64,000 nt of DNA from Plasmopara viticola (Eukaryota > Oomycota > Peronosporomycetes > Peronosporales > Peronosporaceae): contig MBPM02000006.1 of the NCBI GenBank assembly GCA_001695595.3, forward strand, positions 1 to 64,000, in the 5' to 3' direction. Made by a program: the position numbers and the translations under genes. The notes below the pieces were generated by a model that was not told the origin of the DNA, did not search any database, and saw nothing but the letters and a program-made list of their open reading frames with translations. This document shows positions 1 to 40,230 of the stretch, piece by piece; position 1 is the stretch's first letter, and the number at the start of each line of letters is the position of its first letter.

Positions 1-472
1 TTGAAAGTTTGTCTATATTATAAATAATTTAGACGGTGTGACTTCTCAATTGTACCTAGCTATAAATATAAACTCTAAATAACAAAAAATGCCGTCTAAC
101 GAGTACCTGAACAGCACTGGTGGATTCATGATTTTTTGCGGTACCCAGTTTGATGTAGACCACAAAAATATGTGTGGTCCACTCGAGATATGCGCTTGGG
201 GAGGATCTGAGCCGATCTTGGTATTATGTTTGAAAGTTCTTCAAAAGATACAGGGTATAAAGTTTGGCAGGTCCTGGGTGTTGTCGGAAGGTTTTCCGAA
301 ATTGTGGGTGGTCGGGAGAGATCTCATTTCCGAATTTACCACAGGCCCCATAGGTACCAAAAATATGGTACATTTTAGGAGCCCGATGGAGGTACCAAGA
401 AATTGGTACATTTTGGGGTCCCGACTTGGTTCGCTGGTCTGACGCTCTTTTTTTTTCTTTTGTTTTTCCAGA
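1..472 (+). mobile_element. Probable LTR/leader of an LTR retrotransposon (fragment)
   Basis: AT-rich, non-coding sequence that leads into a pyrimidine-rich tract ending in TTTTTCCAG just before the gag-like ORF at 473. It contains a degenerate internal duplication of a GGTAC(C)A-type segment near 350-410. No second LTR lies in the window, so calling it an LTR or leader is an inference from position. A short imperfect inverted repeat (GTCTA...TAGAC) sits near 10-33. Confidence 0.35.
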
Positions 473-877
473 ATGACAACGACCGCGCTTGAGGAGAGCC
501 CCAAACTGGTGGAGGGATCGGAGTGTGTGCGATCTGATTCCGTTGAAGCTGTCCCGGCTCCATCCCTCCTCAGTGAGGAAAGCTCGAGACCTCGCGATAA
601 GTCCGCTGGTAATGGCGCCGGTTCTGTGCTCGAAGAATGAACCCTATCGGCGGAGGGTTCGGAGTGTGTTCGGTCCGATTCCGTTGAAGCGGCCACGGCT
701 CCGACCCTTCAAAGTGTGGGTAATTCAGAAGCTTGTGCAGAATCGGCCGAAGTTAGCGGTGCGCGTGAGGAAGGGTCCCTGCCGTTGGTGGGTGCGGAGT
801 GTGTGCGGTCTGATTCCGTTGAAGCTGCCCCGGCTCCGCCCTCATTACGGGAGGGTGTCCCTAAGCCCTTGAGCGAA
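473..877 (+). pseudogene. gag-like N-terminal ORF with three 19-residue repeats, cut by LINE copy A
   Basis: An ATG at 473 opens a reading frame with one in-frame TGA (638-640) that otherwise stays open until the LINE 3' end at about 877. It encodes three copies of a unit with the core SECVRSDSVEA(A/V)PAP, around 516-570, 660-712 and 795-842. The nucleotide repeats are well conserved. Low complexity, Glu/Ser/Ala-rich composition and the upstream leader resemble the N-terminus of an oomycete LTR-element gag, but I do not recognise the family. The ORF is interrupted by LINE copy A, which lies antisense. Confidence 0.4.
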
Positions 878-911
878 TGTCAACTCGAAACTCTCTATCG
901 GGTGTCGTCGG

Positions 912-3900
912 CTACAAACTCGCCCGAACACGAGTGATTTCCGGTTGCCGGCTTGCAAAGTCACCGAACGCTGAATGTGACTTCATCGTCTCGATCACTC
1001 GCTGTAGCTCGCGATTCTCTTCTCGATCGTACAACCGCCGTTGGAAGAACCGAACGTGCGCGCAGAACGTCGAGAAGATCACCGCGAGCGCCGGAGCTGC
1101 TGGTGTCGGCTGTCTTCCGTCGTACAGGCACCTGTTGCGATCCGTCCAGATCGTGTGCAGCGTCACACCTCGAAGAACATGCCAGACGTCAGCGACAACG
1201 TCCTCCTTGTGTTGCCACTCATCCCGGACGCGTATCTTCCGTGCTAGCGCAATGTCAATCCACGTCGCGCGTCTCACGAGGAGCGGCGACATCACGTGAA
1301 GCACGTTCCTCCAAAGCTGCGAAGCCAGCGTGCAGTCGAAGAACAAGTGTTGCTCCGACTCAACTGCGCTGCAGCCGTCGAGGACACACTTGCGGATGTT
1401 TGGGTTCGTGGCCTCGAGGAACCAGAAGCGCGATCGAACGGGCAGGAGCCGGAATGCGAGCCGCCATTGGAGGTCGTCAAAGATCGGCAGCAAAATACGC
1501 CGCAGACGCTTCGACAGCTGTACGTGCGACTTGATCGTCTTGTCGTCAGCCTTCTCAGTGTGGGTCGTCATCGGGTGCGGTTTACGAGGAAGTGCTGACG
1601 TCCAGACGATCTGAAGATCCTTTGAACGCGGGATGTTCGGGAAAAAATATTTTTTCGCGTTAATCGTGACTCCAAGATGTGGGACAAGCAATTGGGTGTC
1701 CCTCCAAGACGGATCGCGATCGACACCTCGAGCGCCGAGTCGATCAACGATTTGACTCGCTTCGCTGTGGAGTGCACGCAACCACTTTAGTTGTTGCCCG
1801 GGATGAACGTTTGCGAGGGTGAAGTCGACGTGTCGTTCGGCGAATTCGCGCTGAGTCGGCCACGGAAGTCCTTCTCGTGCAAAGTCAGCTAGCGAGCGGA
1901 GAGCGAAGACCCGCGAAACATGCAGTCGGAAGCTGCGTTGCGGCTCAGGCACCATGCCAAGGCACCGTCGGTGCGCTGTCGTTGTGCCCGACCGTGTTCG
2001 CTGCTTGTAGTGGAGCTCAGGGTCGCAGTTGAACCAGATCGGCTGACGAAGACCGGCAACAGTGCGCTCGTCCGACGGGAGGTCGCGCCACGAGATATCC
2101 CAGCGTGTACAGTGCCACCACATCAGTGTTGTCTTCCACCACGCCGACGTGTGTCGCCAGGCGATCAAGTCTCCGTGTCGACGTGGTGATATCGTCAGGA
2201 AGTCGAGTGCGTGGCGACCGCCGTATCGAGGGAGAATGGAGCGCAGCAGCTCCACGCTTGGTGTTGTCCAATTTCGAGACGTCATCGACCGAGCTGAAGG
2301 CACAAACTGGAGTAGCAGCTGAAGTCGTTGCCGCTTGAGCTGAGCTTCCAGATACGGGACCCCGAGACCTCCGTCTCCGCGCCGCTGGTATAAGAACTCG
2401 CTTGGAATCAGCTGGATGTGCGACGCGTCTCGGTCGTGCTTGCGACTCAGCACAAACCGGTTCAGCATTGACTGCCATCGACGAACGACAGCTGTCGGGA
2501 CTGACACGTGCTGTGTGTAGTGCCACAAGCGCGAGAGAACCATTGTCTGCGCCACGAGAAGTCTGCCTCGCAATGTCCGTGCACGCCGATACCACGACTT
2601 GAAGCCGTCGTAAAAGCGCTGGTCAAGGAACTCGAGGATGCGGTCGTCGACAGGCGACTGGCTAAACGGGATACCAAGGTACTTGACCGACCCCACCCGG
2701 TCGAGGATCTGAACGTCCGGCATCGACGGACACTCGTGGCCGCGATTCAGCGCCAGCAGCACCGTCTTGGTCAGATTTAGCTTTGCGCCGGAGCCTTGAC
2801 AGTACTCTTTGACGAGATCGAGCTGTGCCTGAAGGTTAGCAATTGAGCTACCAAGGAGTGTCGAGTCGTCCGCGAAGAAGACGCTCGTCGCCGTGTGGTC
2901 TTCATTTAGGCACACGCCGTACTCCTCGTGTGATCGGAGCAGGTTACCAAGCGGCTCGATCGTCAAGACGAAAAGAAGCGCGGAGAGTGGATCTCCTTGC
3001 TTTACTCCACGCGTCGGTTGAAGTGCCGGTTGAACTTCGCCGTTGATGAGAAGATTCGCGAGCGGGTCGGTGTACAGCAGCTTCACCCAGCGGATAAAGC
3101 CGTCTCCGATGCCCATGCGCTTGAGCAGCTTGAACATGTATTCCCAGTTCACACGGTCAAACGCCTTCTGGAAATCCAGAAACAGCGCGTACGCCTCCTC
3201 GTCACGGCTCGTCACGAGGTCCTGAAGATCTGCAAGAAAGCGAACGTGGTGGTGGATCGAGCGGCCGCGAATGAACCCCTTCTGGTCGGGGTGGATCAGC
3301 TTGTGAATGACAGCCTGAAGACGGAACGTGAGCGCCTTTGACAGCACCTTGACGTCGACCGGAATCAGCGCAATCGGGCGGTAGTTTCCCGGGTCGGCAC
3401 GGGAGCCTTTCTTGTGCAGCAGTACCACAGCTGACTTGCGCTGCGATGTCAGCAGTTTCCCGCGCTCAAGGCAATTTCTGAACACCAGCGCGAGACACTC
3501 ACCAAAGACCGCCGGCGCAACCTGGTAGAAACCAGCCGTCAAGCCGTCCATCCCTGGAGACGAAGTCGCCTTCATGTGCTTGATCGCCAGCTCGAGGTCG
3601 GACGCGCTGACGCTCCTGTCTAGTGCGTTGCGGTCGAGCTCAGGCAGTTTGCGAATGACAGAGTCCAGCAGTTTTCTTTGAAGCGCGTCGACTGGCGGAG
3701 GTGCCTTACCGCCAGGGCTGTTTATGTCCCCCATCTCGGAACCCCAATGTTCGAGGAACCGGAGGTAGATCTCGTTCGAGTTAGTCGAGATACTTCCATT
3801 TGGCGTGACGACCTCCTCGATGGAGACGCGCCGGAGGCTTGTGTCGAGAGGACGGAAGAAGTGCTTCGTCGACTTTTCGGAGTTCGCAGCTTGGAAGTCG

Positions 3901-5054
3901 AAGGCTGCGTCTTGGCTATACTGGCTCGACCTTGTCACCGTCTCTTTGTACTCGCGCATCGCCGCTTCGTACACGTCGCGGTTGTCTTCATCCGACTCCG
4001 TCTGGTACTGAGCGGCCGCGCGGTCAAGCGTAATGCGGGCCTCCTCTATGGCTTGAGCGTCTTGTGCTCGAAGTTTCTTCTGAAGGCCCTGAAGTTGCGC
4101 CTTGATGCTCACCTTCCACATCTCCCAAGTCTTGCCCGGGTTTGATGTCGACCGAAGCTGCTTGAGGATGTCGTTGGCTTCACGCTGAATTGCCAAAACG
4201 ACTTGAGGATAGTCGAGAAGGTATCGTGGAAACTTCCAGTACCCTCGGCCATGTAGTTGGGATCCAGACTTGAAGCTCACACTGTGCGCCAAGTGATCAC
4301 CGGCATGCTTTGGGTCAAAGTACTTGGCGTCGTGGAAAAATTGGTTGCTGAACGATTCGGACAGCAGCACGTAGTCGAGTCGGTTCTTGCGGGGCATCGG
4401 GCCCGTGAAGACGCGCTTCGAGTCGTTGTGGATACGCCAGGCATCAGCAACCCCAAGTCGCGCCAACCAGTCAAGGCAACTCGAGCGACTAGGGTCATAG
4501 CGGAGGTCCGGTATGGAGCAGTCGAGACTCGGGTCAAGCGGAGTGTTCAAGTCGCCAAGGACAAAGTGGATCGCGGCGTCTTCGAACCCTTCTGTCGCGA
4601 GATTCGAGAAGAACGCTTGTTTCTCTTGCTTGTCGACTGGCGCGTACACATTGTGTATGTAGATGGGAGTAAGATCGACCATCACACGCACGACAAGGTA
4701 GCGGCCGGAGACAGTGAGGTGGGGAACATTGGCAGCTGAGTCAAAGCCAGGAAAGTCGGAGCGCAGCAGCGTCAGGACGCCGTTACTCCGACCTCGCGTT
4801 GGTCTATCGAGCAGCGCATTGTCATCGCTTACGAACAGCTTGTGCGTGAATGCCGACTCGAGATGGAAGCGAAAGGTGTCAAGGTGGTGGCGATCGGCGA
4901 ACTTGGTTTCTTGGAGACAAGATACCGAGTACCTGGAGAGCAAATGCTCAATCAGCAGATGGCCGTTCTTCTTTACGCCGTTGGTGTTTACAGTGAGAAC
5001 ACCAACGTTTGTCCAGGTTGGTGGAGCCGAATCCGCCTTAGCAGCGGGTGGCAA
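912..5054 (-). CDS. LINE ORF2: endonuclease-reverse transcriptase
   Basis: 1380 codons, uninterrupted. Domains in order: AP-endonuclease-like (EEP) domain at about residues 15-265 with LQETK, IHNVYAP, GDLNTPLD (about residue 166), RLDYVLLS and AGDHLAHS; reverse transcriptase at about 540-810 with RPIALIPVD, KAFDRVNW (about 635), GVKQGDPLSALLF (about 688) and the catalytic FADD (about 728); and a zf-RVT knuckle C-x4-C-x7-H-x4-C near residue 1225. The family nicks target DNA and reverse transcribes the element RNA there. The open frame begins with TTG, overlaps the end of ORF1 in the +1 frame, and has no ATG until after the first EEP motifs (VRVMVDL), so initiation needs frameshifting, coupled or non-AUG initiation, or the ATG was lost. 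It could encode an active enzyme. Confidence 0.92.
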   Translation of the reverse strand: MPPAAKADSAPPTWTNVGVLTVNTNGVKKNGHLLIEHLLSRYSVSCLQETKFADRHHLDTFRFHLESAFTHKLFVSDDNALLDRPTRGRSNGVLTLLRSDFPGFDSAANVPHLTVSGRYLVVRVMVDLTPIYIHNVYAPVDKQEKQAFFSNLATEGFEDAAIHFVLGDLNTPLDPSLDCSIPDLRYDPSRSSCLDWLARLGVADAWRIHNDSKRVFTGPMPRKNRLDYVLLSESFSNQFFHDAKYFDPKHAGDHLAHSVSFKSGSQLHGRGYWKFPRYLLDYPQVVLAIQREANDILKQLRSTSNPGKTWEMWKVSIKAQLQGLQKKLRAQDAQAIEEARITLDRAAAQYQTESDEDNRDVYEAAMREYKETVTRSSQYSQDAAFDFQAANSEKSTKHFFRPLDTSLRRVSIEEVVTPNGSISTNSNEIYLRFLEHWGSEMGDINSPGGKAPPPVDALQRKLLDSVIRKLPELDRNALDRSVSASDLELAIKHMKATSSPGMDGLTAGFYQVAPAVFGECLALVFRNCLERGKLLTSQRKSAVVLLHKKGSRADPGNYRPIALIPVDVKVLSKALTFRLQAVIHKLIHPDQKGFIRGRSIHHHVRFLADLQDLVTSRDEEAYALFLDFQKAFDRVNWEYMFKLLKRMGIGDGFIRWVKLLYTDPLANLLINGEVQPALQPTRGVKQGDPLSALLFVLTIEPLGNLLRSHEEYGVCLNEDHTATSVFFADDSTLLGSSIANLQAQLDLVKEYCQGSGAKLNLTKTVLLALNRGHECPSMPDVQILDRVGSVKYLGIPFSQSPVDDRILEFLDQRFYDGFKSWYRRARTLRGRLLVAQTMVLSRLWHYTQHVSVPTAVVRRWQSMLNRFVLSRKHDRDASHIQLIPSEFLYQRRGDGGLGVPYLEAQLKRQRLQLLLQFVPSARSMTSRNWTTPSVELLRSILPRYGGRHALDFLTISPRRHGDLIAWRHTSAWWKTTLMWWHCTRWDISWRDLPSDERTVAGLRQPIWFNCDPELHYKQRTRSGTTTAHRRCLGMVPEPQRSFRLHVSRVFALRSLADFAREGLPWPTQREFAERHVDFTLANVHPGQQLKWLRALHSEASQIVDRLGARGVDRDPSWRDTQLLVPHLGVTINAKKYFFPNIPRSKDLQIVWTSALPRKPHPMTTHTEKADDKTIKSHVQLSKRLRRILLPIFDDLQWRLAFRLLPVRSRFWFLEATNPNIRKCVLDGCSAVESEQHLFFDCTLASQLWRNVLHVMSPLLVRRATWIDIALARKIRVRDEWQHKEDVVADVWHVLRGVTLHTIWTDRNRCLYDGRQPTPAAPALAVIFSTFCAHVRFFQRRLYDREENRELQRVIETMKSHSAFGDFASRQPEITRVRASL

Positions 5055-7663
5055 GGCCGCCCGCCACTAGTGTCAACGAGCCGTCGCTCGCAACCTGAAG
5101 CTTCAACACCGACTCGTCAACCGGGTATCCCCCTCAAGTTTCGCAGCTCCTCAAGTTCGTCGAAAAGGTGGCCCTGCCACTGACACGGCTCCAGTGCTCC
5201 ATGCAAAGAGCGCCGAGGTCCGATCGTAGCAGCTTCAAGAGGGTGTTGGGGTGCAGCAGTCTTGCATGATGAGCTGGGATCCACTGGACAGGCTCGCCTG
5301 TGACGAACTGGATCCAGTGATCGTTCGAGAAGATTGTCGGTGCTGCCGACATCAAGGAGAGCTCAAAAACACTTAGCGCCTTTGTGAACGGGATAGCTCA
5401 CGAACTTGGTCCGTCGCTGTCCACCACTTCGCGCACGCCTTGAGCAGCTCTTGACGTTTCGAGGGCACAGCCGTCCCTGTCAGCTTCTTCCACTTTGCAC
5501 TGAACGTGACGTCGTCGTTCGGCGTCGTCGCGCTTAGCACACGGTTGATCATGTGCAATTGGGCGAGTTCGGCGATCTCGTTGCCATTCTCAGCCATCTT
5601 GAGGGACATCGCGCTGTTGAACGCCGGACCCGACTCAACGAGTTTCTTCATTACGTGGTCCGGGTTCGAAGCGTTTTCCATGATCTTCACGGTGCCGTCC
5701 ACCTTGCCGTCTGCCCCGCAAGGGTCGGGAAGTGTGTTGAGCAGCGCGGTGTTCTCGTCGTTCACCATCGACTCCGCAACTTCGACCATCAACGACGCTT
5801 TCACTGCGTTTTTAATCTTGGTGTGGCGCTTTTCCACGAAAAAAGCCTCTTTTGACGTCTTGAGCGCCTCCGGCATCTTCACTTCGGCTGGGACGATCTG
5901 GTGACGTTTACCGTACTTTGGGTCGATGGCCGCGTCGAAGCTCTGGAACGATGCGGACATCGTCTGAAGCTCCGCAAAGTAATTTTTGGTCGCGATTCCG
6001 TCGAGCGGGCGTGGTACATGCTTCGTCAGCATGCTGGAGAAGTCGACTCCTCCGCGCGTGCGTTTTTTTTTGTTCTCGACGGTTGTGAAGCCGTCCGTGA
6101 GCATCAGCATCTTTGTCGGCTTGGACTTTGGGCTCGAGGGTGGCGAGATTCCGCCTGACGATCTTGAGTCGAGATCGACAAGTATCATCAATGTCGATCA
6201 CCTTCTTCGCGTGATTGGTGTGCCACAAGTTGGTGGGCATGCTGAGCTCCTGGCTGGAGCTGACCTTCCCTCTTCTCTTCAGCCTCGATGGCGTTGCGCA
6301 GTGAGGAGAAACGAGGTCTGGCACGAGCGGCCGCTAGTGGTGGAATCGCCGCAGGTTGGAGAGGCTTCGAGCTGTGCTTTGGTGCTGGCTTTGGGGTCTT
6401 CAACGCCGGCTTCGGCGCCGACGTTGTCGAGGATGTACAACGCGGACTGGTCTCCGATGTCCCTAGGTCAATGCCGTGGATCGAGCGAAAGCCAAACGGG
6501 AGACGCTGGGATTGGAATGGAGCGTCTTTGCCGTGCGCCGGGTGCAACTTGTTGTCGAAGATGACTTGGTCGCATACCGAACCGCTCAAAAGCAATGGCG
6601 GCGGACACTTGTTCGAGCGGAAGAAGACGCGCCAAGTTGCAGATGTGAGGCCCGTCGCCAGGTTCACGTCGCGGAACGTATCATACACTGGCTGGCACCC
6701 CATGTCAAAGAGTCGACGAAGCATCAGGTTCGTGTCCGAGTCTGAGTCGACGTTCGAGATATCTAAGAAAAATTTGTTTGCGAGAACGTCGAAAGGCTTG
6801 AACGGGTACACGCCACCAAGGATGGTGACGGTCGTTTGCTCAAGCTTCAAACACGCGGCCTGGGTTTTCACCTTAAGTCGCAGGTTACCGCCCGGCATCT
6901 TGGACACTTGGCCGACGAGGAATTCCTCGTACAGCCGGCTCAGCGCCGGGTTCCCGTGGCTGGTGCCAACGAGTGCAGCCATGATCTTTTGCAGCGGGGT
7001 CTTTGCGAACGCTTTTCCCGTCTCGATCACCATATCAAACTTGGCGCGTGGGAGCGGATACGGGCGGGACTGACCAATGCGAGCGGCGATGCCGGACCAG
7101 TCGCCACCGGCAGCGTACTGTCGCTCAATCGCTTCGATGTCGATCGCGAGGGGCTTCGGAGTTTCTACACGTCGGCGAGCGGCGGCGACGGTAGCATGGT
7201 CGCGGCGGAGGCTTTCTTGCTGGAAGAGCAGATCGGCCATTGTTGGCCGCGGGTCAGCACCATCGGTCGCGCCAGCATCAACAGGCCGCGGAGGTGTGGG
7301 CGTCGCGACGTCGTCGTCAGGCAAATTTTCCTGGGACGACAGAAGCGGTTCGGTCATGTCGCTGTCGTCAGCTAGCTCCGCACTTCTTACCGCGCCTAGT
7401 GACACGGGGAGAGCAGAGACAGGAGGCGACGGAGGCGCTAGTTGGGACGAGGGGGTAGAGAGCGAGAGCGTCCCTGGATCGTTGCCAGCGTCATATACGA
7501 CAGCGAGAAGATCGGCGGTGACGATTTCGGCTTGTCCAACGGAAGGGGAAGCATCTGTAGCCACATACGGTATGCTGGGTGCAGACGGGAGAGCCGGACC
7601 AAGTACGACAGGGTCGATCTGGTCGGCACGAGGGAAAGAAGGGGCAGCAGCTGGATTTCTCAT
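5038..7663 (-). pseudogene. LINE ORF1 (RNA-binding/gag-like), frameshifted
   Basis: Starts at ATG 7663. The first segment (to 6188, 491 codons) has a Pro/Ser/Thr-rich disordered N-terminus, then a block conserved in copies B and C: KPLAIDIEAIERQYAAGGDW, PLPRAKFDMVIETG, VGQVSKMPGGNLRLKVKTQA, FFLDISNVDSDSD and VYDTFRDVNLATGLTSATW. This block is probably the nucleic-acid-binding core. Coding continues in another frame from 6188 to 5373, with the two frames overlapping at TGATG, then in 5355-5134, and ends LATRC-stop at 5038-5040. Alignment with copy B shows frameshifts near 6200, 5390 and two between 5170 and 5110. Several are in homopolymers, so sequencing error is possible. The usual family role is chaperoning element RNA. 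Confidence 0.75.
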
Positions 7664-7724
7664 CGCGATGGGCGGAAGAGAGAGGCGGCTGGGATGGGGA
7701 GCTGGAAAGGCTGAAGGTTGATAG

Positions 7725-7773
7725 GGGTTCTTCTGAAGAGTCGACTTGTGGGGTAGCCGGCAAATTGAGAAGT
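7725..7773 (-). promoter_or_regulatory. Conserved 5' end of LINE leader, abutting tRNA-Phe
   Basis: The plus-strand sequence before the tRNA contains GAGTCGACTTGTGGGGT, then GCCGGCAAATTGAGAAGT. The same block with few changes precedes the tRNA relic of copy C (minus strand, 38547-38592), and a shorter version (GCAGGCAAATTGGGAAGT) precedes the tRNA of copy B at 30061-30078. It is therefore part of the LINE, not of the tRNA spacer, which here would end in ACAATAGCGAC. It probably holds the element's 5' promoter end. Confidence 0.6.
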
Positions 7774-7777
7774 GCCT

Positions 7778-7835
<58 letters not shown>

Positions 7836-7846
7836 GGGTCGCGGCA
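7774..7846 (+). tRNA. tRNA-Phe (GAA), array 1 unit 1
   Basis: Consensus 73-nt copy. Cloverleaf: acceptor GCCTCGA/TCGCGGC with one U4-C69 mismatch, D arm GCTCAGTTGGGAGAGC, anticodon arm TCAGA-CTGAAGA-TCTGA, T arm CCTGG-TTCGATC-CCGGG, discriminator A. A box and B box are intact. Its upstream flank is the LINE leader, so it lacks the TATA-like and CAA motifs of other units. Confidence 0.9.
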
Positions 7847-8156
7847 CCTCGGGACATATTGTTCTGCACTGTGCTCAATTTTCGCTCTTGTTCCTCCTAG
7901 TCATTGTGTCCGCCCATGGACCACGAGTATTCTTCTTCTGCCATCCAAATGTCTTAAAACACTTAGTATTAGCAAAATATACGATCCGCCTAGCTAACCT
8001 TTTGATCGAGCATGTGCACGTCCAAGTAGTGTATGCGGTTGTAGTATTTGACTTTTTGAGTGCTGCAAGACGAATGGTATGTAGTAGAGACTGCTTTTGC
8101 ACGATGGAGATAAAATTACCAATATAGAGTGCCCTTGGTCGTACGACAATAGCGAC

Positions 8157-8160
8157 GCCT

Positions 8161-8218
<58 letters not shown>

Positions 8219-8229
8219 GGGTCGCGGCA
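8157..8229 (+). tRNA. tRNA-Phe (GAA), array 1 unit 2
   Basis: Consensus copy; the first one with the array-type upstream spacer. Confidence 0.9.
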
Positions 8230-8536
8230 CCTCGGACATATTGTTCTGCACTGTGCTCAATTTTCGCTTTGTTCCTCCTCTTTATTATGTCCGCCCATGG
8301 ACCACGAGTATTCTTCTTCTGCCATCCAAATGTCTTAAAACACTTAGTATTAGCAAAATATACGATCCGCCTAGCTAACCTTTTGATCGAGCATGTGCAC
8401 GTCCAAGTAGTGTATGCGGTTGTAGTCTTTGACTTTTTGAGTGCTGCAAGACGAATAAATGTAGTAGAGACTGCTTTTGCACGATGGAGATAAAATTAAC
8501 AATATAGAGTGCCCTTGGTCGTACGACAATAGCGAC

Positions 8537-8607
8537 GCCTCGATAGCTCAGTTGGGAGGCGTCAGACTGAAGATCTGAAGGTCCCTGTTCGATCCCGGGT
8601 CGCGGCA
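8537..8607 (+). tRNA. tRNA-Phe-like, array 1 unit 3, two 1-nt deletions
   Basis: One base is missing from the D arm (GGGAGGCGTC) and one G from the T stem (CCCTGTTCG). Probably non-functional unless the deletions are sequencing errors. Confidence 0.6.
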
Positions 8608-8909
8608 CCTCGGGACATATTGTTCTGCACTGTGCTCAATTTTCGCTGTTGTTCCTCCTATTCATTGTGTCCGCCCATGGACCACGAGTATTCTTCTTCT
8701 GCCATCCAAATGTCTTAAAACACTTAGTATTAACAAAATATACGATCCGCCTAGCTAACCTTTTTGATCGAGCATGTGCACGTCCAAGTAGAGTATGCGG
8801 TTGTAGTATTTGACTTTTTGAGTGCTGCAAGACGAATGGTATGTAGTAGAAACTGCTCATGCACGATGGAGACAATATAGAGTGCCCTTGGTCGTACGAC
8901 AATAGCGAC

Positions 8910-8913
8910 GCCT

Positions 8914-8971
<58 letters not shown>

Positions 8972-8982
8972 GGGTCGCGGCA
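8910..8982 (+). tRNA. tRNA-Phe (GAA), array 1 unit 4
   Basis: Consensus copy. The spacer before it is shortened by about 10 nt (GAGACAATATAG). Confidence 0.9.
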
Positions 8983-9292
8983 CCTCGGGACATATTGTTC
9001 TGCACTGTGCTCAATTTTCGCTCTTGTTCCTCCTATTCATTGTGTCCGCCCATGGACCACGAGTATTCTTCTTCTGCCATCCAAATGTCTAAAACACTTA
9101 GTATTAACAAAATATACGATCCGCCTAGCTAACCTTTTTGATCGAGCATGTGCACGTCCAAGTAGTGTATGCGGTTGTAGTATTTGACTTTTTGAGTGCT
9201 GCAAGACGAATGGTATGTAGTAGAGACTGCTTTTGCACGATGGAGATAAAATTACCAATATAGAGTGCCCTTGGTCGTACGACAATAGCGAC

Positions 9293-9296
9293 GCCT

Positions 9297-9354
<58 letters not shown>

Positions 9355-9365
9355 GGGTCGCGGCA
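9293..9365 (+). tRNA. tRNA-Phe (GAA), array 1 unit 5
   Basis: Consensus copy. Confidence 0.9.
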
Positions 9366-9671
9366 CCTCGGGACATATTGTTCTGCACTGTGCTCAATTT
9401 TCGCTTTGTTCCTCCTATTTTTGTCCGCCCATGGACCACGAGTATTCTTCTTCTGCCATCCAAATGTCTAAAACACTTAGTATTAACAAAATATACGATC
9501 CGCCTAGCTAACCTTTTTGATCGAGCATGTGCACGTCCAAGTAGTGTATGCGGTTGTAGTATTTGACTTTTTGAGTGCTGCAAGACGAATGGTATGTAGT
9601 AGAGACTGCTTTTGCACGATGGAGATAAAATTACCAATATAGAGTGCCCTTGGTCGTACGACAATAGCGAC

Positions 9672-9688: not shown

Positions 9689-9731
<43 letters not shown>

Positions 9732-22264: not shown

Positions 22265-22284
22265 GCCTCGATAACTCAGTTGAA
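22265..22284 (+). pseudogene. Truncated tRNA-Phe, end of array 1 (unit 39)
   Basis: Only GCCTCGATAACTCAGTTGA remains, with one change in the A box; unrelated AT-rich sequence follows from about 22284. Confidence 0.8.
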
Positions 22285-23104
22285 GGTCGTCTATATTATG
22301 TAATATAGGCGAATGTCTACCCAACTTGCCTGGCGTAGTACCTGTTTTAAACTTCTCTAGTGTTCTATATATAATAATGCATTTTCCCCCAAAATAGGAA
22401 TATACAAAAGTTTATGTAATCTCCTAAAAAAAAAATTTAATAATTTATGTGTTCCACGTAGTTTTTGGATCTCATTCAATCACTGGTCTGGGAGGGTTTC
22501 GGTTCTACACTTTTGCCCCCGATTTGACTTCAACTTTGGGCGAAAAAGGCCATTTAGACCCTTTGTGCGTGGCAACGTTGCTCGATAACTGCGGTCGATC
22601 AACAGCCGCAACTTTTGGCACTTAGGCAGCACATACAGCGCCCATTGCATGCCAATTGCTCACGCGTATCAAGACTTCAGGTGCTTAAACGGAAGTCCGG
22701 TCTTTCAGCACACTGTCGCGTCGTTTCGCGACGGCGTAATCCGCAGCCCAATCCGTGGGCCGACCCATTTTTGGGATCGTTATACTTTATAAGATAAAAA
22801 TCCCTCGCTTCTTATTCGTCGTGAGGAGTGAAAAAATTCTTGATTCTCCAGGCCTCACAGTAAAGATAAAAAAAGTGAACGGTATGGCCCCACAGGTAAA
22901 TTGGCCTTTTAGGCCTCTTTGGGTCACCATAACCACTGGGATTCAGCTCTCAGACTTCATCAACGCACCCTTGGCCCCCCAGGGTTCACAGAAGACAAAG
23001 CTCTTGACTAACGAAGCCGCTTTCTCACTGCTTTGTTACAGGCGCCCCCTACTCCGGTCTTTTACGCGGCTGGCTCGTATCCAGTTACCCTCCAGGTGCA
23101 CTGT
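22285..23104 (+). mobile_element. AT-rich filler and probable second LTR-element leader
   Basis: 22285-22440 is AT-rich and opens with an imperfect palindrome (TCTATATTATGTAATATAGG). 22440-23104 is richer in GC, with a TATA-like TATACTTTATAAGATAAAA at 22782-22800 and an intron-like GTTCACAG...TTGTTACAG stretch before the small ORF at 23105. The layout resembles the leader at 1-472, but the sequences are not the same. No coding gene seen. Confidence 0.35.
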
Positions 23105-23245
23105 ATGGCTACATCAAGTGCGAGACTTGCGGCAGCGGACCCCAGAAAATTCGGGCGTTCTTCAAGTGATGAGGCTTTACCCGTAAGGGCGCCCGGCAGG
23201 CTGCCCGACCAGATAGCACCCACATCTTCGGACGACGGTATCTAA
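23105..23245 (+). pseudogene. Short gag-like N-terminal ORF (46 aa)
   Basis: ATG at 23105; encodes a Ser/Ala/Arg-rich peptide beginning MATSSARLAAADPRKFG and ending in a stop at 23243-23245. It lies just upstream of the 3' end of LINE copy B, as the gag-like ORF at 473 does for copy A. Function is unknown; an LTR-element gag start is an inference from context. Confidence 0.25.
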
Positions 23246-23303
23246 ACGATTGGAATGAACTCAGTATTTGCCGACATTAGCCGTGTTCTTTTCTAGACGT
23301 TGT

Positions 23304-26300
23304 TTATTTGTTCATGTGCGCACAGGTCTTGATGGTGCTGCCTTGCAAGTTATGGGTGATGCCCGGGTGCTGACAAGTGAAGCTGTGAAACACGGAATGG
23401 GTCTTCAGTGAGTCAATCACTTGATTTAGATCTTGTCTCAGCTGCCGGTCGTACAGGTGTCGCTGGAAAAAGCGAATGTGCGCACAGAAAGTCGACAATA
23501 TGACTGAGAGTGCTGGAGCTACCGGTATCGGCTGCCGTCCGTCGAACAAGCATCGATTGCGGTTCGTCCAGATCGTGTGAAGTACCACAGCTCGAGGCAC
23601 ATGCCATACATCTCGTACCACACAAAAACATTGAACCCAGTCGTCGCGTACGTGCACCTTGTTCGCGAGAGCAATATCAAACCACGACGGTCGAGAGACA
23701 AAGAATGGTGAGACAAGCTGCAAGATCTGACACCACAGCCTTGACGCCAGCGTGCAGTCGAAAAATAAATGCTTCTCAGTCTCTATCGCTTTGCATCCTG
23801 CGTGCACGCATTTACGGATGCCTGGATGTGACGTCTCCGAGAACCAGAAGCGCGATCGCACGGGTAGCAAGCGAAACGCAAGACGAAATTGCAAGTCTTC
23901 GAAGACCGGAAGCAGGATCTGGCGCAGCCGCTTTCGATACTCCGCGAATGCTTCAATCTGTTGGTCGTCGACACGCTTTGAGTAAATTTTCATCGGGTGC
24001 GGCTTTTTTGGAGGGTCAGGCGCCCAGACAATTTTCAGGCACGCTGACCGTGGATTGTTCAGGATCAAGAATATCCTCGCTTTATTTCTGTAGCCAACTC
24101 GTGGAAGCAGACATCCGTGTGCGTCTATACTTGACGAGTCCCGTACAAGTTGTCGTGCTCCAAGGCGGTCAACAATTTGCGTCGCTTCCCGGTACAGCGA
24201 GCGCAGCCACTTCATCTGTGTGTACGGTCGCACTGAGACAAGCGTGTAGTCGATATGTCGCTGTACGAAGGTGGTTGCAGCTGGCCATGCTTCACCTTCA
24301 CACCTGAAGTCAGCGAGTGACCGTAATTTGAAGCTACATGAGATATGGAGACGAAAGCTTCGTTGTGGTTCGGCGACCATACCTAGACAACGTCGATGCA
24401 CCACCACCGTATCGGACCGTGTTCGCTTCTCGTAGTGAAGATCAGCATCAGCATGGAACCAAATTGGCTGATGTAGGCCATACATGGCGCGTTCGTGCAA
24501 ACTCAAGTCATGCCACGTGACATTCCATCGTGTCTTGTACCAACACACCCACGTCTCTCTCCACCACATTGCAGTTCGGCCAAGTGAGATAAGCTTGCCG
24601 TGACGAAGCGGTGAGATTTTAAGAAAGTCGAGTGCGTGGCATCCGCCATAGCAAGGTAATCCAGACGTCAGCAGCTCAATGCTCGCCGCCGTCCAGTTCT
24701 TCTCATCATCACCAATTACAGCTCCGATAAACTGCAATAACAGCGCAAGACGTTGCTTTTTGAGCTGGGCATCGAGACGTGGAATACCAAGACCATCGTG
24801 GGTTCGCTTGTGATAAAGAAATTCGCTCGGGATGAGCATCACATGCTTTTCGTCACGATCATGCTTACGACGCAGAACAAACCGGTTAAGCATCGATTGC
24901 CAACGCCGCACAATGACCCGAGATATATTCGCGTGCTGAGTGTAGTGCCACAAACGCGATAGCACCATCGTCTGTGCAACGAGCAGTCTACCTCGAAGTG
25001 TGCGGGCGCGCCTGTACCATGATTTTATGCTCTCAAAGAAGCGAGCGTCCAAAAAATTGGTAATCATATCGTTGACTGACGCCTGATCGAACGGGATGCC
25101 TAAGTATTTTGTGGTGTCGGAACGTCCAAGAACTTGGACCCCGGGAAGTGCAGGACACACCATGCTACGATTTAAGGCCAGCAGTACCGACTTGGACAAA
25201 TTAAGTCTTGCTCCAGAGCCAGCACAGTACACGTCTACAATTGCAAGCTGAGCCCGAACGTGATCAATTGACCCGGCGAGCAACGTCGAGTCATCCGCGA
25301 AAAACATACTTGTCACCGTACAATTCGCATTCAGACATATCCCGTATTCGTCATGTTTGCGAAGTAAATTTCCAAGAGGCTCAATTGTAAGCACAAATAG
25401 GAGTGCCGACAAAGGGTCTCCTTGCTTCACGCCTCGAGTAGGGTGCAAAGCTGGCTGGATATTACCATTGATGAGCAGGTGTGCTTTCGGTTGGTGTACA
25501 AGAGCTGAATCCATGAAATTGAAACTGGTCCGAAGCCCATGCAAGCCAGCAGCCGAAACATATACGACCAATTTACACGGTCGAATGCCTTTTGAAAGTC
25601 CAGGAAAAGTGCGTAGGCCTCTTCATCTCGATTTGTCACAAGGTCTTGCAGATCGGCAAGAAAGCGTACATGATGATGAATTGATCGGGTCTTGACGAAG
25701 CCTTTTTGGTCTGGATGGATCAGGTCCAGCATTACTTTTTGTAATCGATATGTCAGTGCTTTTGACAGCACCTTCACGTCGACTGGCACGAGTGCAATTG
25801 GACGATAATTGCCAGGCTTAGCGCGTAAACCTTTCTTATGTAGCAGTACGACCGCTGATTTACGCTGAGAAGCTAGAAGCTCGCCGCGCCTCAGTCTATC
25901 CTTGAAAACAATCGCGAGGCACTCGCCAAATACTGATGGTGCCACCTGATAGAATCCAGCCGTTAAACCGTCCATGCCTGGAGAGGATGTCGCTCTCATA
26001 TGCTGGATTGCAGTTGCAAGGTCAGCAGTGGTCAGGTCGGCTTCCAAAGCTGTGCAGCTCGTGACTGGGACGACTCTCGAAATTGAGTCAAGAAGTATGC
26101 GTTGCTGCGCGACATTTGGCTCAGAGGCCGATTCGATTGGACTCTTGACATCACCCATCTCAGATCCCCAGTGCTCCAAGAAACGCAGAGAGATTTCTTG
26201 AGGATTCGTTGAGACATTTCCACTTGGTGTTATAACCTCCTCAATCGAAACGCGTCGCAAACTTGTGTCTAGAGGACGAAAAAATGAGATGTTGAGCGTT

Positions 26301-27515
26301 CCGAGTTGTTGACTTGAAAGTCAAAAGAAGCATCATGATTGTGTTGGCGGGTTCTCGTGACTGTATCCTCATAGCTTCGTAAAGCCTCGTCACAAAAGTC
26401 TCGATTTTCTTTTCCTGACAATGCACGGTATCGGGCGGCTGCTTGATCTAATGCGACGCGAGCATCTTCGATTTCCCGCGTGTCTTGTTGCCTGAGCTTT
26501 TTCTGGACGTCTTAAAGCTGAGTCTTGATGCTTTTTTCAGATTTCCCCAAATTTTTCCGGGGTTTCCTGAACGGCGAAGCTGGTCCAAAACCTGCTCGGC
26601 CTCCCTTTCAATTGCTGATACAACCTTCGGATATTCGAGGAGGTATCGCGGAAATTTCCAATAACCACGACCATGTAGCTGCGTACCACTTCGAAGGGAA
26701 ACGCTATGAGCAAGATGATCGCCAGCATGCATTGGCAGGAAATATGAGGCATTTTCGTAGAAGCGGTCGCAGAATTGCTCCGAAATCAGAATGTAGTCCA
26801 ATCGATTTTTTCGAGGAAGAGTACCAGTAAACACTCGCTTAGAGTCATGGTGGGTACGCCACGCATCAACGACACCTAGTTTGGCAATCCACTCAAGACA
26901 AGAAGAGCGGCTCTGGTCGTAGTGCAAGTCAGGTTTCGAGCAATCGAGTTGAGGGTCAAGTGGCGTATTTAAATCTCCGAGTACGAAGTGCGTTGCATCG
27001 TCTTCAAACCCATCTGTTGGAAGGTTTAGAAAGAACGATTGCTTCTCGTGTCTATCGACAGGCGCGTACACATTGTGAATGTAGACGGGAGCACGTTGAA
27101 CCGTTACCTTTACAACAAGATACCTTCCCGGCACAGTCAGGTGTACCATTTCTGCAGCCGTTTCGATACCAGGAAAATCAGAACGTAGCAGTGTCAGTAC
27201 TCCACTACTGCGACCGCGCGTGGGTCGATCGAGCCGCGTGTTACTGTCATTGACGAAGAGTTTGTGGGCAAAATTTGAGCAGAGGTGAAACTTGAACGTA
27301 TTAAGATGCTGCGCGTCAGCAAACTTGGTTTCTTGGACGCATATTAGCGAGTGCTTGGCTAAAAGATTGTCAATGAAGAGGTGACCATTTCGCTTGATGC
27401 CGTTTGTTTTCACGGTCATAAGCGAGAGAGCGTTCCAGGCGTGTTGTTCTTTCAACCCAACTTTAGCAGCGACTGGAAACAGCTCCAGCCACAGTCGTAG
27501 CCAAGGAGCCAGCAT
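23304..27515 (-). pseudogene. LINE copy B ORF2 (endonuclease-reverse transcriptase), frameshifted
   Basis: Three open segments: 27515-26448 (EEP endonuclease with VQETKFAD, IHNVYAPVD, GDLNTPLD, RLDYILIS), 26260-25427 (first RT half with RPIALVPVD, KAFDRVNW) and 25571-23304 (GVKQGDPLSALLF, catalytic FADD, and the C-x4-C-x7-H-x4-C knuckle). The breaks are near 26520, between 26300 and 26260, and near 25490. Unlike copy A, this copy has an ATG at 27515 in the ORF2 frame, 17 codons before the ORF1 stop, which may be the ancestral ORF2 start. Confidence 0.85.
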
Positions 27516-29992
27516 TCAATTGAATCTTTAACACCGATGAGTCGTCCGGATAGTACCCTTCAAGCTGGTGGAGCACTTCGAGATCGTCTAGAAGGTGACC
27601 TTGCCATTGTACATCACGCCACTGCTCCATACAAAGCTCTCCAACCTTAGAACGCAGCAGCCGTAGCAGTGTGTTGGGATGCAAAAAGCGCATGTGGTGT
27701 GCTGGGATCCATTCGACTGGCTGGCCTGTAAAGTATTGAATCCAGTGGTCATTTGTAAAGAGTGTCGGAGCAATGGACATAAGCGCAAGCTCAAATATAC
27801 CGAGTGCCTTCGACGCACGCGCAAGCTCCGTAATCGTGTCAGAGTGGGTCCACCACTTGGCACATGCCTTGAAGATGTCATGGCGGTTGGATGGTAGTGG
27901 CATATTCATGACACGTTTCCACTTTGTAACAAAAGTTGTGTCTTCTGTCGGGTACGTATGATAATACGCGATTGATTGCATGCAGTTGCGCAATTTCAGC
28001 GATGATGCTGAGGTCACCTGCCATTTTAAGGGACAACGCACTGTTAAAAGCCATCGGACATTGAGCTGCCGGTTTCATCACAAGGTCTGGATTTGATGCA
28101 TTATCAAGTAACTTGATCATGCCATCGACCTTTTCGTCTGCAAGCACAAGACGATCTGGCAACGTATCAAGCCGGGCAGTGTTTTCATCATTGATCATTG
28201 CCTCGGTAACCTCTTGGATCAACGTAGCCTTCGCTGCTTTTTTAATTTTTGTGTGGTGTTTTTCCATGAGAAATACCGACTCCTTTGCGGTGGCCATTCC
28301 CATAGGACGTGCCACGGCTACTGGTACAATCTGCTTGCGTAAGCCATACTTCTTGCTTGCCGTGACGTCTTTAAGCTCAAGATCGACTTCCATGTTCTGC
28401 AGGACGTCAAAGAAGTTTTTAGTCGCGATTCCATCGAGTGATTGCGTCTGTTTTTTGGTAAGAAGATTTGAGAAGTCAATGTCTCCGCGGCTCCGTTTTT
28501 TGCTGTTGCAGACGGTGGCGAATCCGTCTGAGGTTTCTCCGTTTGTAAGATACATCGTTGGTCTCTTCATACTGCTTTCGGGACTGCGGGGCGGAGAAAT
28601 TTTTCCGCTCGACCCTTCGAACGTCGCAACTGACAGAATATCGTCAGTGCAGCTTGGAGGACTCGCGAGCTGATTGCAGTTGTGTAACAGACCATGCTGA
28701 ACTTGTTGTTGAAACTTCTTATTATTTTTCGCTCTGGACTCTTGTACTGCACGCTGCAGTGAGGTCATCGACTTGGACTTCGAAATGGCTATGTTTGGGT
28801 TCGTTTGATGCTCCTGTTTTGCTACAGCAAGTGCCGTGACAGTTTGCAGTGGCGATGACCCGGTTGGAGTGGCTAGACGTTGCAAGTTGGTGTCACTCGT
28901 GCGAAGGTCGATGAAATGATGCGAACGATAGCCGAACGGCAAGCGCTCGGAAGAATATGGAGCGTTCTTTCCGTGCACGGGGTGCAGTTTGTTGTCGAAT
29001 TGAAGCTGGTCACAAACCGATCCATTCACAATAAGAGGACCAGGGCATGTCGTGCTAAGGAAGTATACTATCCAGGTGGCTGACGTTATTCCAGTTGCAA
29101 GGTTCACTTCACGGAAAGTATCGTACACCGGTTTGCAGCCCATCAAGAATAAGCGGTGCAACATTACGTCCGTTTTCGTGTCCGAGTCAACATTAGAATA
29201 TCGACAAAGTACTTGCCACCTAGCACGTCGAATTCCTTAAACATAAATACACCCCCTAAGATGTTTATCTCTGTGCGTTCGAGAGCGATGCAGGCATCCT
29301 TCGGCTTAACTTTAATTCGAAGATTGCCACCAGGAAGTTTGGACACTTGGCCAATCTCGAAGTTGCTGTACAGGCGCTCAAGTACATCATTGCCGTGATG
29401 CTTGCCCGTTAGCGATGCCATAATCTTCTAGAGTGGTGTTTTTGCAAACATGCGTCCGGTATCGATTACCATATCGTACTTGGCACGAGGTAGGGTATAT
29501 GGTCGCGCCTGCTCCATTTTAAGAGGCGATAAATGACCAGTCCCCGCTGGCGGCGTACTGACTTTCGATTTTTTCGATGTCGCAGGCGAGTGGCTTGGCC
29601 GTTTCTACCCGCCGGCGCGCAGCGTCAACGTCCTCGGTGCTCCGACGAATGGTTTCTTGCTGAGCAAGTAAGCTAGCCATGGTCGGGCGCATGTCTTCAT
29701 CTGGTGGGGACGAAACATTATTGACGCGTGACTGGGGAGAGAGGATCGATTCACTGTCCGGACCACCAGACACAGTTGACGAAGCGAAAGCGTCCGAGGT
29801 GGAAGCATTGAGCTCCGGCAGCGTGACCGTAGCCGCAACGTCATTTGAAGTGGATGCTAGAGGCAACTCTATATCGGGTCGCTTTTCCAATTGACGATTA
29901 CTTGCATTAAGTAACGACGAAGACGAGACAGATTTATCGTTTTCGAGAGATTCTTTACGAGGCGCGCATGTAGAAATCTCACGGCTGTCCAT
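27463..29992 (-). pseudogene. LINE copy B ORF1, broken
   Basis: ATG at 29992. Segments are 29992-29519 (Ser/Thr-rich N-terminus, then KPLACDIEKIESQYAASGDW), 29421-29164 (IGQVSKLPGGNLRIKVKPKD), 29164-27878 (VYDTFREVNLATGITSATW and a long charged C-terminal half) and 28041-27463 (ending SSRC-stop). In-frame stops include one near 29518 and one near 29430. The 29164-27878 segment is continuous where copy A is frameshifted, which shows the intended frame. Same RNA-binding role inferred. Confidence 0.75.
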
Positions 29993-30078
29993 TGCGATAG
30001 AACAAAGGGTAGAAGATGTAGTTAAAAGGGAGTACTTCCTGTGATTTCACTTGCGTAGAAGCAGGCAAATTGGGAAGT

Positions 30079-30151
30079 GCCTCGATAGCTCAGTTGGTAA
30101 AGCGTCAGACTGAAGATCTGAAGGTCTCTGGCTCGATCCCGGGTCGCGACA
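30079..30151 (+). tRNA. tRNA-Phe-like, array 2 unit 1, abuts LINE copy B
   Basis: 73 nt, anticodon GAA. Changes: GGTAAAGC in the D arm, T54 to C, and GCGACA at the 3' end, which adds a C2-A71 mismatch. Upstream flank is the LINE leader. Confidence 0.6.
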
Positions 30152-30459
30152 CCTCGGGACATATTGTTCTGCACTGTGCTCAATTTTTGCTCTTGTTCCT
30201 CCTATTCATTGTGTCCGCCCATGGACCACGAGTGGTCTTCTTCTGTCATCTAAAATGTCTTAAAACACTTAGTATTAACAAAATATACGATCTGCGTAGA
30301 TAATTTTTTTGATCGAGCATGTGCACGTCCAAGTAGTGTATGCGGTTGTAGTATCTGACTTTTTGAGTGCTGCAAGACGAATGGTATACAGTAGAGACTG
30401 CTTTTGCGCGATGGAGAATTACCAATATAGAGTGCCCTTGGTCGAACGACAATAGCGAC

Positions 30460-38002: not shown

Positions 38003-38473
38003 TAGGTCTACAAAGTTCTACAATCTTGTCAAAATTGCCTTATCACCTAAAGGTATGCCTCAAAAGGCACCAGCCTAACCGGCCATGCGAATGGCCCCAC
38101 CCGTCAAAGAAGGAAGCTCATAGTTCTCACTGCCTAAAATGACTTCGGTAATATATTCACTATTAGTTGTGACAAAGAAGAAGGGGATGAGGATATAGAC
38201 GACAGCCCTCGACTCATATCTCGGGTCGCCGACGAAGTAATATATTCGTCTTTGAGAAATCCACTTTTTCAGCAAATCGCGTGCTCAAGGCTCTACATCG
38301 TTTCTGATTATAGAAATTCATGGCGTTGCGTAGATCCTAAGTATAAGAGAGGCTAACAACCGACTGAATACCTTGTCAGGTGCTTCTCAGTATGTTCCTA
38401 CCACGGTGCAATCGAAGAAGTATTCTGGAATCAGGTAAAGCTACAAGGTCCCAAAACTAAAACCTTTCTGAGG
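38003..38473. other. Flank beyond the tRNA relic of LINE copy C; possible LTR-element fragment
   Basis: AT-rich, not related to the tRNA array spacer. On the minus strand it reads through TTCTTTGTCACAACTAATAG into a short open stretch (GSENYELPSLTGGAIRMAG, 38131-38075), which resembles an LTR followed by a gag start, but no second copy is available to test this. It was carried by the inversion together with the tRNA relic. Confidence 0.3.
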
Positions 38474-38546
38474 TGCCGCTACTCGGGATCGAACGAGGGA
38501 CCTTCAGATCTTTAGTCTGACGCCATCCCAACTAAGCATTCGAGTC
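38474..38546 (-). pseudogene. tRNA-Phe relic at the 5' end of LINE copy C
   Basis: 73 nt aligning end to end with the array tRNA. The anticodon loop is CTAAAGA (anticodon AAA), the T arm is CCTCG-TTCGATC-CCGAG, and the acceptor has three mismatches. Its 5' nucleotide joins directly to the LINE leader (GCCGGCAAATTGAGAAGT), as in copies A and B. On its 3' side only CCTC is shared with the array trailer before the sequence becomes unrelated. Confidence 0.85.
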
Positions 38547-40230
38547 ACTTCTCAATTTGCCGGCAACCCCACAAGCCGACTCTTCGAAATAAACCAACTT
38601 TCTCCCGCTTCTAAAGCCACCTATTTCGCTCCCTCGCCAGTGAATATGGCGAAACAAACCTTAAGAATTGCCGCAACTTCCCTCCCAAACGCATCTGCGC
38701 CACCCGCCGCTCAGCCTCCGCGCGACGCAGCCGGATCTACGCCTGTGTCTACACCAAGAATCTAATCGGCACCCACCTCAGGAAGTCCATCTCTCTCGGA
38801 TCCATCGACTGGCTCTGATTTCTCAGACGACGCCTCACCAGCCACTCATCCGGCTGCGCCATCGTCGCCTCCCTTATCCGCGCTCTCCGTGCCGCCTGCA
38901 CCCATGCTCGAAGACTCGGACGACGAGTCGATGGGTGCGTCTCCCGATGCTGTCTTTACCGTCGCTGCTACTGCTGCCGTGTTTGCCGTTGTTCATGCTC
39001 CCGCCAACACCGTCGATCCCAGCACGTCTGGGATCAAAGATAGCGATGACGACTCGATGAAATCACCTCTGACTGAAAGAGCGTCGACCACACTTGTCGA
39101 CACGCGTCTGACGATGGCCGCTCTGCTGCAATAGCAGGAAACCATTTGTCGCGAAGAAGCTAATGTCGAATCGAAGCGGAGCCGCATCGAGACGCCAAAG
39201 CCGCTCGCATGCGACATCGAGTCGGTCGAGCGCCAGTACGCCGCTGAGCGTGGCTGGTCGTTCATCGCCTCGCAGATGGAGCAAGCGCGGCCGTACGAAT
39301 TGCCCCGCGCGCGTTACGACATGGTCATCAATACAGGACGCACTTTCGCGAAGACTTCGCTTCAGAAGATGATGGCATCGCTGGCTGGTTCGCACTACGG
39401 CAACGACGCGCTTGAGAAGTTGAACAGCGAGCACGCGATCGGCCAAGTGTCGAAGCTCCCTAGCGGCAACCTCCGCGTGAACATCAAGAAAACGGAAGCC
39501 GGCCTCAAGCTCGAGCGAACGAAGGCGAACATCTCGGGCGGTGTCTTCTTGCTCAAGGAGCTCGGTGTCTTTGCAAGCAAGTACTTTCTCGACATCTCCA
39601 ACGTCGATTCAGACACCAATACGGATGCGATCCTGTATCGGCTCTTCATTCTTGGGTGCGAGCCGTTTTATGACACGTTTCACGAGGTGAACATGGCGAC
39701 CGGCATCACCTCGGCGACGTGGTGAGTGTACTTCCTCATGAATACGTTTCCACAACCGCTGATTGCGAACGGCTCGGTATGTGACAAGATCCTGTTCGAC
39801 AACAAGCTGCACCCACCTCACGACAAGAGTGCACCGTATCAGTCCGAGCGTCTGCCGTATGGTTATTGCTCGCTCCACGGCATCGACCTGCTCACAAGCG
39901 ACGAAGTCTTTCCAAGTTCGAAGCCTCCGGCCGAGTCGCCGAAGCAGCATACGAAGCAGAAACAAGCTATACCGAAGAATCCCCTGCAAGCGGCGACGAA
40001 CAGCAAGCAAATGACCTCGCTGCTAAAGGCAGTTAGGGAGCCCAAGAAGCGCAATGGGAAGGTCCAGAATGGAGCTCCGCATGGCTTACCTCCTGGCATC
40101 AACTAGCTTGCGAAAGTCCCAAGCACCCAGGACGACGCTCTGTCGATCTCAACGCACGAAGGATCCAGCGGCATGATTTCTCCCCCCGGCAGTCTGAAAG
40201 GCAAGACGAAATCTTTACTCATGCTGAAGA
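38547..40230 (+). mobile_element. LINE copy C, 5' part (inverted)
   Basis: Leader (38547-38645) matching the 5' end of copy A, then the N-terminal half of ORF1. Homology ends at about 40230, after the segment SGMISPPGSLKGKTKSLLMLK, exactly where the minus-strand part at 38002 resumes. Together the two parts make one complete ORF1. Confidence 0.85.
38646..40230 (+). pseudogene. LINE copy C ORF1, N-terminal half
   Basis: ATG at 38646 (MAKQTLRIAATS). Stops follow in frame at about 38763, 39132 (TAG after LTMAALLQ), 39722 (TGA within SATW-VYF) and 40107. Conserved blocks: KPLACDIESVERQYAAERGW, ELPRARYDMVINTGRTFAKT, IGQVSKLPSGNLRVNIKKTE, FLDISNVDSDTNTD and YDTFHEVNMATGITSATW. Apart from point stops the frame is well kept, so this half is less damaged than the ORF2 of the same copy. 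Confidence 0.8.

Follow-up and report, generated by a model that had tools for sequence, protein, structure and literature searches.

Diverged L1-type LINEs of Plasmopara viticola very probably use tRNA genes in general as landing sites

The window analysed here comprises bases 1-64000 of contig C6 of Plasmopara viticola, and the assembly searched along with it holds 92,937,831 bases on 358 contigs. It carries four LINE copies, named A to D, and several tRNA-Phe sequences. The features are the following:

1..7773, minus strand: LINE copy A, running from the contig start (3' end) to 7773 (5' end); the sequence from base 1 onward (TTGAAAGTTTGTC) is a 3' terminus common to 27 places
6188..7663, minus strand: ORF1 of copy A, 491 aa, with homologous ORF1 in copies B and C and a sub-threshold Pfam match only
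5373..6191, minus strand: middle ORF of copy A, 272 aa, with homologous stretches in copies B and D and no Pfam match
912..5054, minus strand: ORF2 of copy A, 1380 aa as listed, with APE-type endonuclease, reverse transcriptase and a possible C-terminal zinc motif
7759..7773, minus strand: 5'-terminal 15 bases of LINE A, on the LINE strand ACTTCTCAATTTGCC, core-promoter-like (CAWTTTNYY)
7774..7787, plus strand: tRNA-Phe nt 1-14, expected right copy of the LINE A target duplication, whose left copy would fall beyond the contig start
7774..7848, plus strand: tRNA-Phe at the LINE A junction, array unit 1 (ARAGORN)
22265..22278, plus strand: 14-nt tRNA-Phe stub GCCTCGATAACTCA, left copy of the LINE B target duplication, with array spacer before it
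22279..30078, minus strand: LINE copy B, with ORF2 broken into several shorter ORFs (ORF listing, homology to A)
30079..30092, plus strand: tRNA-Phe nt 1-14 GCCTCGATAGCTCA, right copy of the LINE B target duplication, 13/14 identical to the left copy
30079..30153, plus strand: tRNA-Phe at the LINE B junction (ARAGORN)
32998-37977, minus strand: LINE copy D, fourth and older, with 37-67% aa identity to copy A ORF2 in pieces; it lies after the end of the B array and before copy C
38473..38546, minus strand: tRNA-Phe in decayed form adjoining copy C, with nt 1 at 38546 and an approximate lower end
38547..40085, plus strand: LINE copy C, 5' leader and ORF1-like remnant (homology to other copies)

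The leader of copy A (...GGCAAATTGAGAAGT) stops at 7773 and that of copy B (...GGCAAATTGGGAAGT) at 30078, and in both cases the tRNA-Phe (GCCTCGATAGCTCAGTTGG) called by ARAGORN at 7774-7848 and 30079-30153 follows directly. Copy C shows the mirror arrangement at 38547, with the leader on the plus strand and a tRNA-Phe-like sequence, for which ARAGORN gave no call, running from 38546 down to about 38473 on the minus strand; no ORF2 match was found within 38001-48000. An earlier sequence-only reading of the window had described three head-to-head junctions of a LINE 5' end with nucleotide 1 of tRNA-Phe, at 7774, 30079 and 38546 (minus), and all three were confirmed to the base. The same reading had drawn the elements too short, as the 3' end of B is located at 22279 and that of A at base 1 of the window and of the contig, and the ‘gag-like’ material that it had taken for the 3' flank of A and B is actually inside both elements. 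The true 3' ends are located further out than it had placed them and are preceded by tRNA upstream DNA plus tRNA nt 1-14. Copies A and B share 62-74% aa identity in the three long pieces of ORF2 (and 53% in an overlapping piece of 95 residues), 41-64% in ORF1 and about 66% in their DNA, and ORF1 of copy C is 50% identical to that of A. The divergence of A and B is thus larger than the reading had given it. Weak ORF1 homology (33-47% aa over short pieces) is also seen at 59431-59804 on the plus strand. Opposite to LINE A, inside its 3' region, the plus strand at 40-940 contains a core-promoter-like ACTTCTCAATTG followed by a 117-aa ATG ORF (89-442) and further short ORFs, a stretch that is possibly an antisense transcription unit. 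The window from 7774 to 22278 as well as contig C224 hold a tandem array of units of about 383 bp with one tRNA-Phe each, and the units looked at show by eye a T4-C69 mismatch in the acceptor stem (GCCTCGA...TCGCGGC).

Judged by their sequences, the elements are L1-type (APE endonuclease) LINEs. ORF2 of copy A contains a reverse transcriptase of the non-LTR kind (Pfam RVT_1, 2.4e-35) and a zf-RVT match of 0.0054, which is under its cut-off, and no RNase H was among its Pfam matches. The alignment to human L1 ORF2p (5.6e-59) extends over residues 17-878, from the endonuclease through the reverse transcriptase, and places an APE endonuclease at the N-terminus. It keeps N (NTNG/NING), E (QET), D and N (GDLNT/GDFNT), D (LDY/IDH) and DH, which we take to be the acidic and histidine residues of this enzyme. 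The Pfam model Exo_endo_phos gave no match in copy A, and among five scanned relatives it was present in P0001, P0004 and P0053 and missed in P0018 and P0034. The elements have no LTR, their two ends differ (leader versus GTTGAAAG end) and about 14 bp of target are duplicated. Using a protein search in which the 7999 candidates with most words in common were scored, 88 related proteins were found, the closest named among these being from Globisporangium splendens with up to 78% identity, further ones carrying the names Peronospora, Phytophthora and Lagenidium and one a name truncated at ‘Plasmo’; these oomycete relatives are known here as proteins alone. Searches of viral contigs found no relatives, and of the searches of genome contigs one found none and another gave one 30%-identical stretch in a worm endosymbiont record (L125).

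In order to view the family from its 5' end, the last 84 bases of the copy A leader were used as query, resulting in 66 candidates, 40 of which were scored (L009-L038, L047, L048, L101-L108) with the outer flank of all 40 being read. The sequence-only reading had named non-tRNA 5' flanks in most other copies as the finding that would speak against it; instead, tRNA sequence adjoins the leader in 37 of the 40 scored matches. The tRNA starts at the junction or at most 2 bases off in 32 of these 37, three show a tRNA-Lys 14-mer and then the 3' end of another LINE (stacked), and two have the junction upstream of box B. No recognisable tRNA was found downstream of the remaining three of the 40 (L030, L031, L104), which with 83-84% identity to the query are among the most diverged. 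Twelve more places were read beyond the 40 (L109-L120), with tRNA at 11, two of them stacked; L120 belongs to another repeat, and the 5' junction of L110, which is located within tRNA-Lys, follows none of the TCA rules. Taking together every junction locus that was read, ARAGORN called 13 anticodons for 9 amino acids, namely Phe(GAA), Lys(TTT, CTT), Thr(AGT, CGT, TGT), Ala(CGC), Asn(GTT), Arg(ACG), Ile(AAT, TAT), Met(CAT) and Cys(GCA), and a junction at tRNA-Tyr, an intron-bearing gene without ARAGORN call, was recognised by eye. Just 14 nt of tRNA separate the neighbours in the stacked elements (L021, L027, L028, L111, L112). All these counts come from one assembly and translate only inexactly into independent events, as many of the insertions lie inside arrays.

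For the 3' end, a query of the window's first 100 bases (copy A type) gave 27 candidates, all 27 of which were scored, and 24 outer flanks were read (L072, L073, L075, L078, L081-L100; L080 is the same place as L081), leaving out copy A of the window, which has none, and two places on C147. By eye, 21 of the 24 flanks end in box A (some with a changed base), one in box B (L084) and two are unclear (L089, L093), and the LINE is antisense to the tRNA in all 22 box A or box B flanks. We compared 19 end pairs, which were paired by position at 7.3-9.5 kb with their interior unread, so that the pairs L105/L088, L035/L091 and L108/L092 with 9.4-9.5 kb may contain more than one element. A script found agreement over 13-15 bases, with one difference at most, in 15 of the 19 pairs; in two of these (L014/L070 and L024/L079, tRNA-Phe) the close spacing of several LINE 3' ends leaves the match ambiguous. 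Of the others, L011/L074 agree by eye at 15/15, L104/L093 at 12/14 without tRNA, and L026/L080 only with a gap. The pair L025/L082 (C255) disagrees, with a tRNA-Lys stub on its 3' side and a tRNA-Cys box B on its 5' side, due to either a recombination between two insertions or an assembly join. For L030 the 3' end was seen as a degraded match only (L122, 4 edits), for L031 none was found in the stretch read (L121) and for L076 none was matched in the scan. In the window itself the two copies of the LINE B duplication agree at 13 of 14 bases, and at the box-B insertion L022/L084 14/15 bp are duplicated, terminating in GTTCA. Target duplications inside the tRNA had been proposed beforehand as the sign of targeting, and as they were found there they argue for it. 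Empty sites also exist: among 230 candidates, 40 of them scored, the 45 bp of 3' flank plus nt 1-16 of a tRNA-Ile on C23 recur at 100% in 21 units of the neighbouring array among the matches listed, the match ends where the LINE begins, and one empty unit was read beside both junctions.

The offset was counted between the end of the leader and the final base of TCA (A14 of box A). It is exactly 14 in 31 of the 37 tRNA junctions, the other six showing 12, 13, 15 (three) and 16. In the whole genome 256 places carry the 15-base leader end when one mismatch is allowed, and this motif also terminates other repeats. Followed by TCA at offset 14 it is present at 73 places, 67 of which end in box A, (T/A)(A/G)GC(T/C)CA; the remaining six are the decayed tRNA-Phe of copy C with its duplicate and four places of other sequence including L104. 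The neighbouring offset 13 gave 4 places (1 box A, 1 box B, 2 chance-like) and offset 15 gave 12 (5 box A, 1 box B, L031, 5 chance-like), and a backwards-read control at offset 14 gave one (0 forward, 1 reverse). By these counts a chance adjacency of LINE and tRNA was rejected. Only 7 of 30 loci fetched with the 14-mer GCAAATTGRGAAGT alone (L039-L068) are tRNA-linked and most of the others are a different dispersed repeat, thus the terminal motif alone is not LINE-specific. The non-LINE loci in L039-L066 represent a separate dispersed repeat ending in ...AAAGCAAATTGAGAAGT followed by GATAT, with the LINE terminal motif in common, perhaps since both are oomycete core promoters. The LINE strand start ACTTCTCAATTTGCC contains CAATTTGCC, matching the oomycete FPR element CAWTTTNYY (PMC3599244), and this suggests that the LINE RNA may begin at its first base, beside the tRNA.

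The position of the nick follows from a comparison of genes with 3' junctions, which read CCCA-ATGG and CCCA-GTTAAAG for tRNA-Arg, CTCA-GTGG and CTCA-GTTGAAAG for tRNA-Thr, and GTTCA-AATC and GTTCA-GTTGAAAG for the box-B case. As the base after A14 in tRNA-Arg is an A and the junction shows GTTAAAG, the nick lies after A14 and the GTT is derived from the LINE, and from all three cases the LINE end supplies GTT(G)AAAG with the cut after ..CA at nt 14. In the sequences read, the LINE lies antisense to the tRNA with its 3' end after nt 14 (A14 of box A, ..GCTCA^) and its 5' end adjoining nt 1. As nt 1-14 are present at both ends, the LINE has a whole tRNA gene next to its 5' end, and its 3' end is bordered by a 14-nt stub and, beyond this, the old upstream flank. 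Insertions also stack at one gene.

All of this makes it very probable that a diverged group of L1-type (APE endonuclease) LINEs uses tRNA genes in general as landing sites. In our model the element endonuclease would nick the sense strand of the tRNA gene after A14 and the 3'-OH at the nick would prime reverse transcription of the LINE RNA, whose 3' end would read ...CTTTCAAC or ...CTTTAAC; target-primed reverse transcription is the established scheme behind this step. The other strand would be cut 14 bp upstream, and the junction would consequently fall on nt 1. Hence nt 1 looks like an outcome of geometry and not like a recognised feature, and the box-B insertion L022/L084, which keeps the distance but leaves nt 1, points in the same direction. 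Of the earlier proposal that the lineage inserts at the 5' boundary of tRNA-Phe genes, the location was correct and the specificity for tRNA-Phe was not, as many tRNAs are used, and nt 1 is probably not recognised with the first nick being 14 bp away. Recognition may, less surely, be mainly of the box A DNA sequence itself, and we regard it as probable that the APE endonuclease reads this DNA directly. Direct reading by an L1-type endonuclease is also suggested by the precision to a single base, by the rare box-B insertions with their TCA and by the rare non-tRNA insertions, the latter at TATACGTTGGATCA (L104/L093) and TGGCAAAATTAAGCTCA (L030, degraded partner in L122). The rebuilt tRNA would still contain box A and box B and with them its internal Pol III promoter, so that an insertion would be nearly harmless and the gene could be hit again, and the tRNA at the junction presumably stays usable; ARAGORN still calls a tRNA at most unstacked junctions.

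The explanation favoured by the sequence-only reading, namely that the element carries an antisense tRNA-Phe as its 5' part, accounts for three window junctions at the same tRNA base. It is hardly tenable in view of the 13 anticodons found at the junction, the outer sequence beyond the tRNA, which is specific to each gene, and the stub with matching upstream flank at the 3' end, and equally of the empty array units and the stacked elements with only 14 nt of tRNA between them; the empty-site match refutes it. Nearly as improbable is an origin of the three window junctions from one segmental duplication. Such duplication does occur, as the copy C junction sequence is present twice, at C6:38533 and C245:23105, suggesting that either a segment was duplicated or a haplotype was left unmerged, and the two are probably duplicates of each other. 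A, B and C are different lineages, though, by the identities given above, and like junctions are found at tRNAs with 13 anticodons on many contigs; divergence rules out a common duplication for A versus B.

A more serious alternative, which we still consider unlikely, is that the Pol III machinery (TFIIIC/TFIIIB on the gene) sets the target as for Dictyostelium TRE5, with an endonuclease that is only weakly sequence-selective. The use of many tRNA species is what a shared factor predicts, and an interaction of TRE5 ORF1 with TFIIIB has been described (PMC5911963). On the other hand the site is fixed to the base, with offset 14 at 73 places versus 4 and 12 at its neighbours, unlike the 40-54 bp window of TRE5, and the box-B junctions at GTTCA (L022/L084; L025 on its 5' side) as well as two tRNA-less sites with GGATCA or AGCTCA and imperfect duplication (L104/L093; L030/L122 with 4 edits) point to sequence reading, unless these represent decayed tRNA genes. 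A mixed mode, in which the factor brings the element and the endonuclease chooses the base, fits as well.

We lean slightly towards direct reading of box A in its full form, an old oomycete LINE lineage with an endonuclease reading the Pol III box A, to which every tRNA gene would be a self-restoring landing pad. The 14-bp duplication would rebuild the gene, the Pol II-type LINE start would stand head to head and base to base with a Pol III gene, and elements could stack with no tRNA gene being lost. It is known that retrotransposons have a refuge in tRNA genes. The tRNA-linked LINEs found in our literature search land beside the genes, whereas here the cut is inside an internal promoter element common to tRNA genes and, by its geometry, the duplication restores the gene. 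This raises the question how a LINE endonuclease can come to recognise a motif that is short and degenerate with base-level specificity, and whether insertions of this kind contribute to the form of the tandem tRNA arrays in oomycetes. For targeted insertion tools, too, a LINE whose target is short, defined and gene-preserving is of interest.

Among known systems, Utopia is a LINE with a restriction-like endonuclease. It is an oomycete LINE in U2 snRNA genes with RNase H upstream of the reverse transcriptase (PMC4640811), and is similar in using one site of a multicopy small-RNA gene but differs from the present LINE with its tRNA target and APE-type endonuclease. Large tandem tRNA arrays have been described in Phytophthora infestans, where the accessible text makes no mention of LINEs at them (PMC9584435), and in a literature search of partial coverage no report of an oomycete LINE in tRNA genes was found. 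Ty3 of yeast shares the narrow placement at tRNA genes generally, but is an LTR element that lies upstream of the mature tRNA by about 12 bp, at a distance of 1-4 nt to the Pol III start (PMC5911963, PMC5006619). TRE5 and TRE3 of Dictyostelium are likewise L1-type LINEs landing at tRNA genes, TRE5 40-54 bp upstream and TRE3 40-150 bp downstream (PMC5911963, PMC5006619), thus outside the gene and in windows, whereas the present LINE has its junction at nt 1 and enters the gene itself at a single box A base, the duplication rebuilding the tRNA. In Dictyostelium purpureum, NLTR-A is a non-LTR element very near to nt 1, at 2-6 bp upstream, with an RNase H domain after the reverse transcriptase (PMC5006619), whereas the present junction is at 0 bp with 14 bp duplicated, and in copy A no RNase H was detected within ORF2. 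Dada elements insert inside tRNA genes, and the duplication TAGCTC proposed for some families corresponds to the same box A stretch as the present site, but they are DDE DNA transposons, in Perkinsus each family being confined to its own tRNA genes (PMC3706591), whereas the present elements encode a reverse transcriptase and an APE endonuclease. In summary, the closest precedents are Dictyostelium TRE5 and NLTR-A and the Dada DNA transposons.
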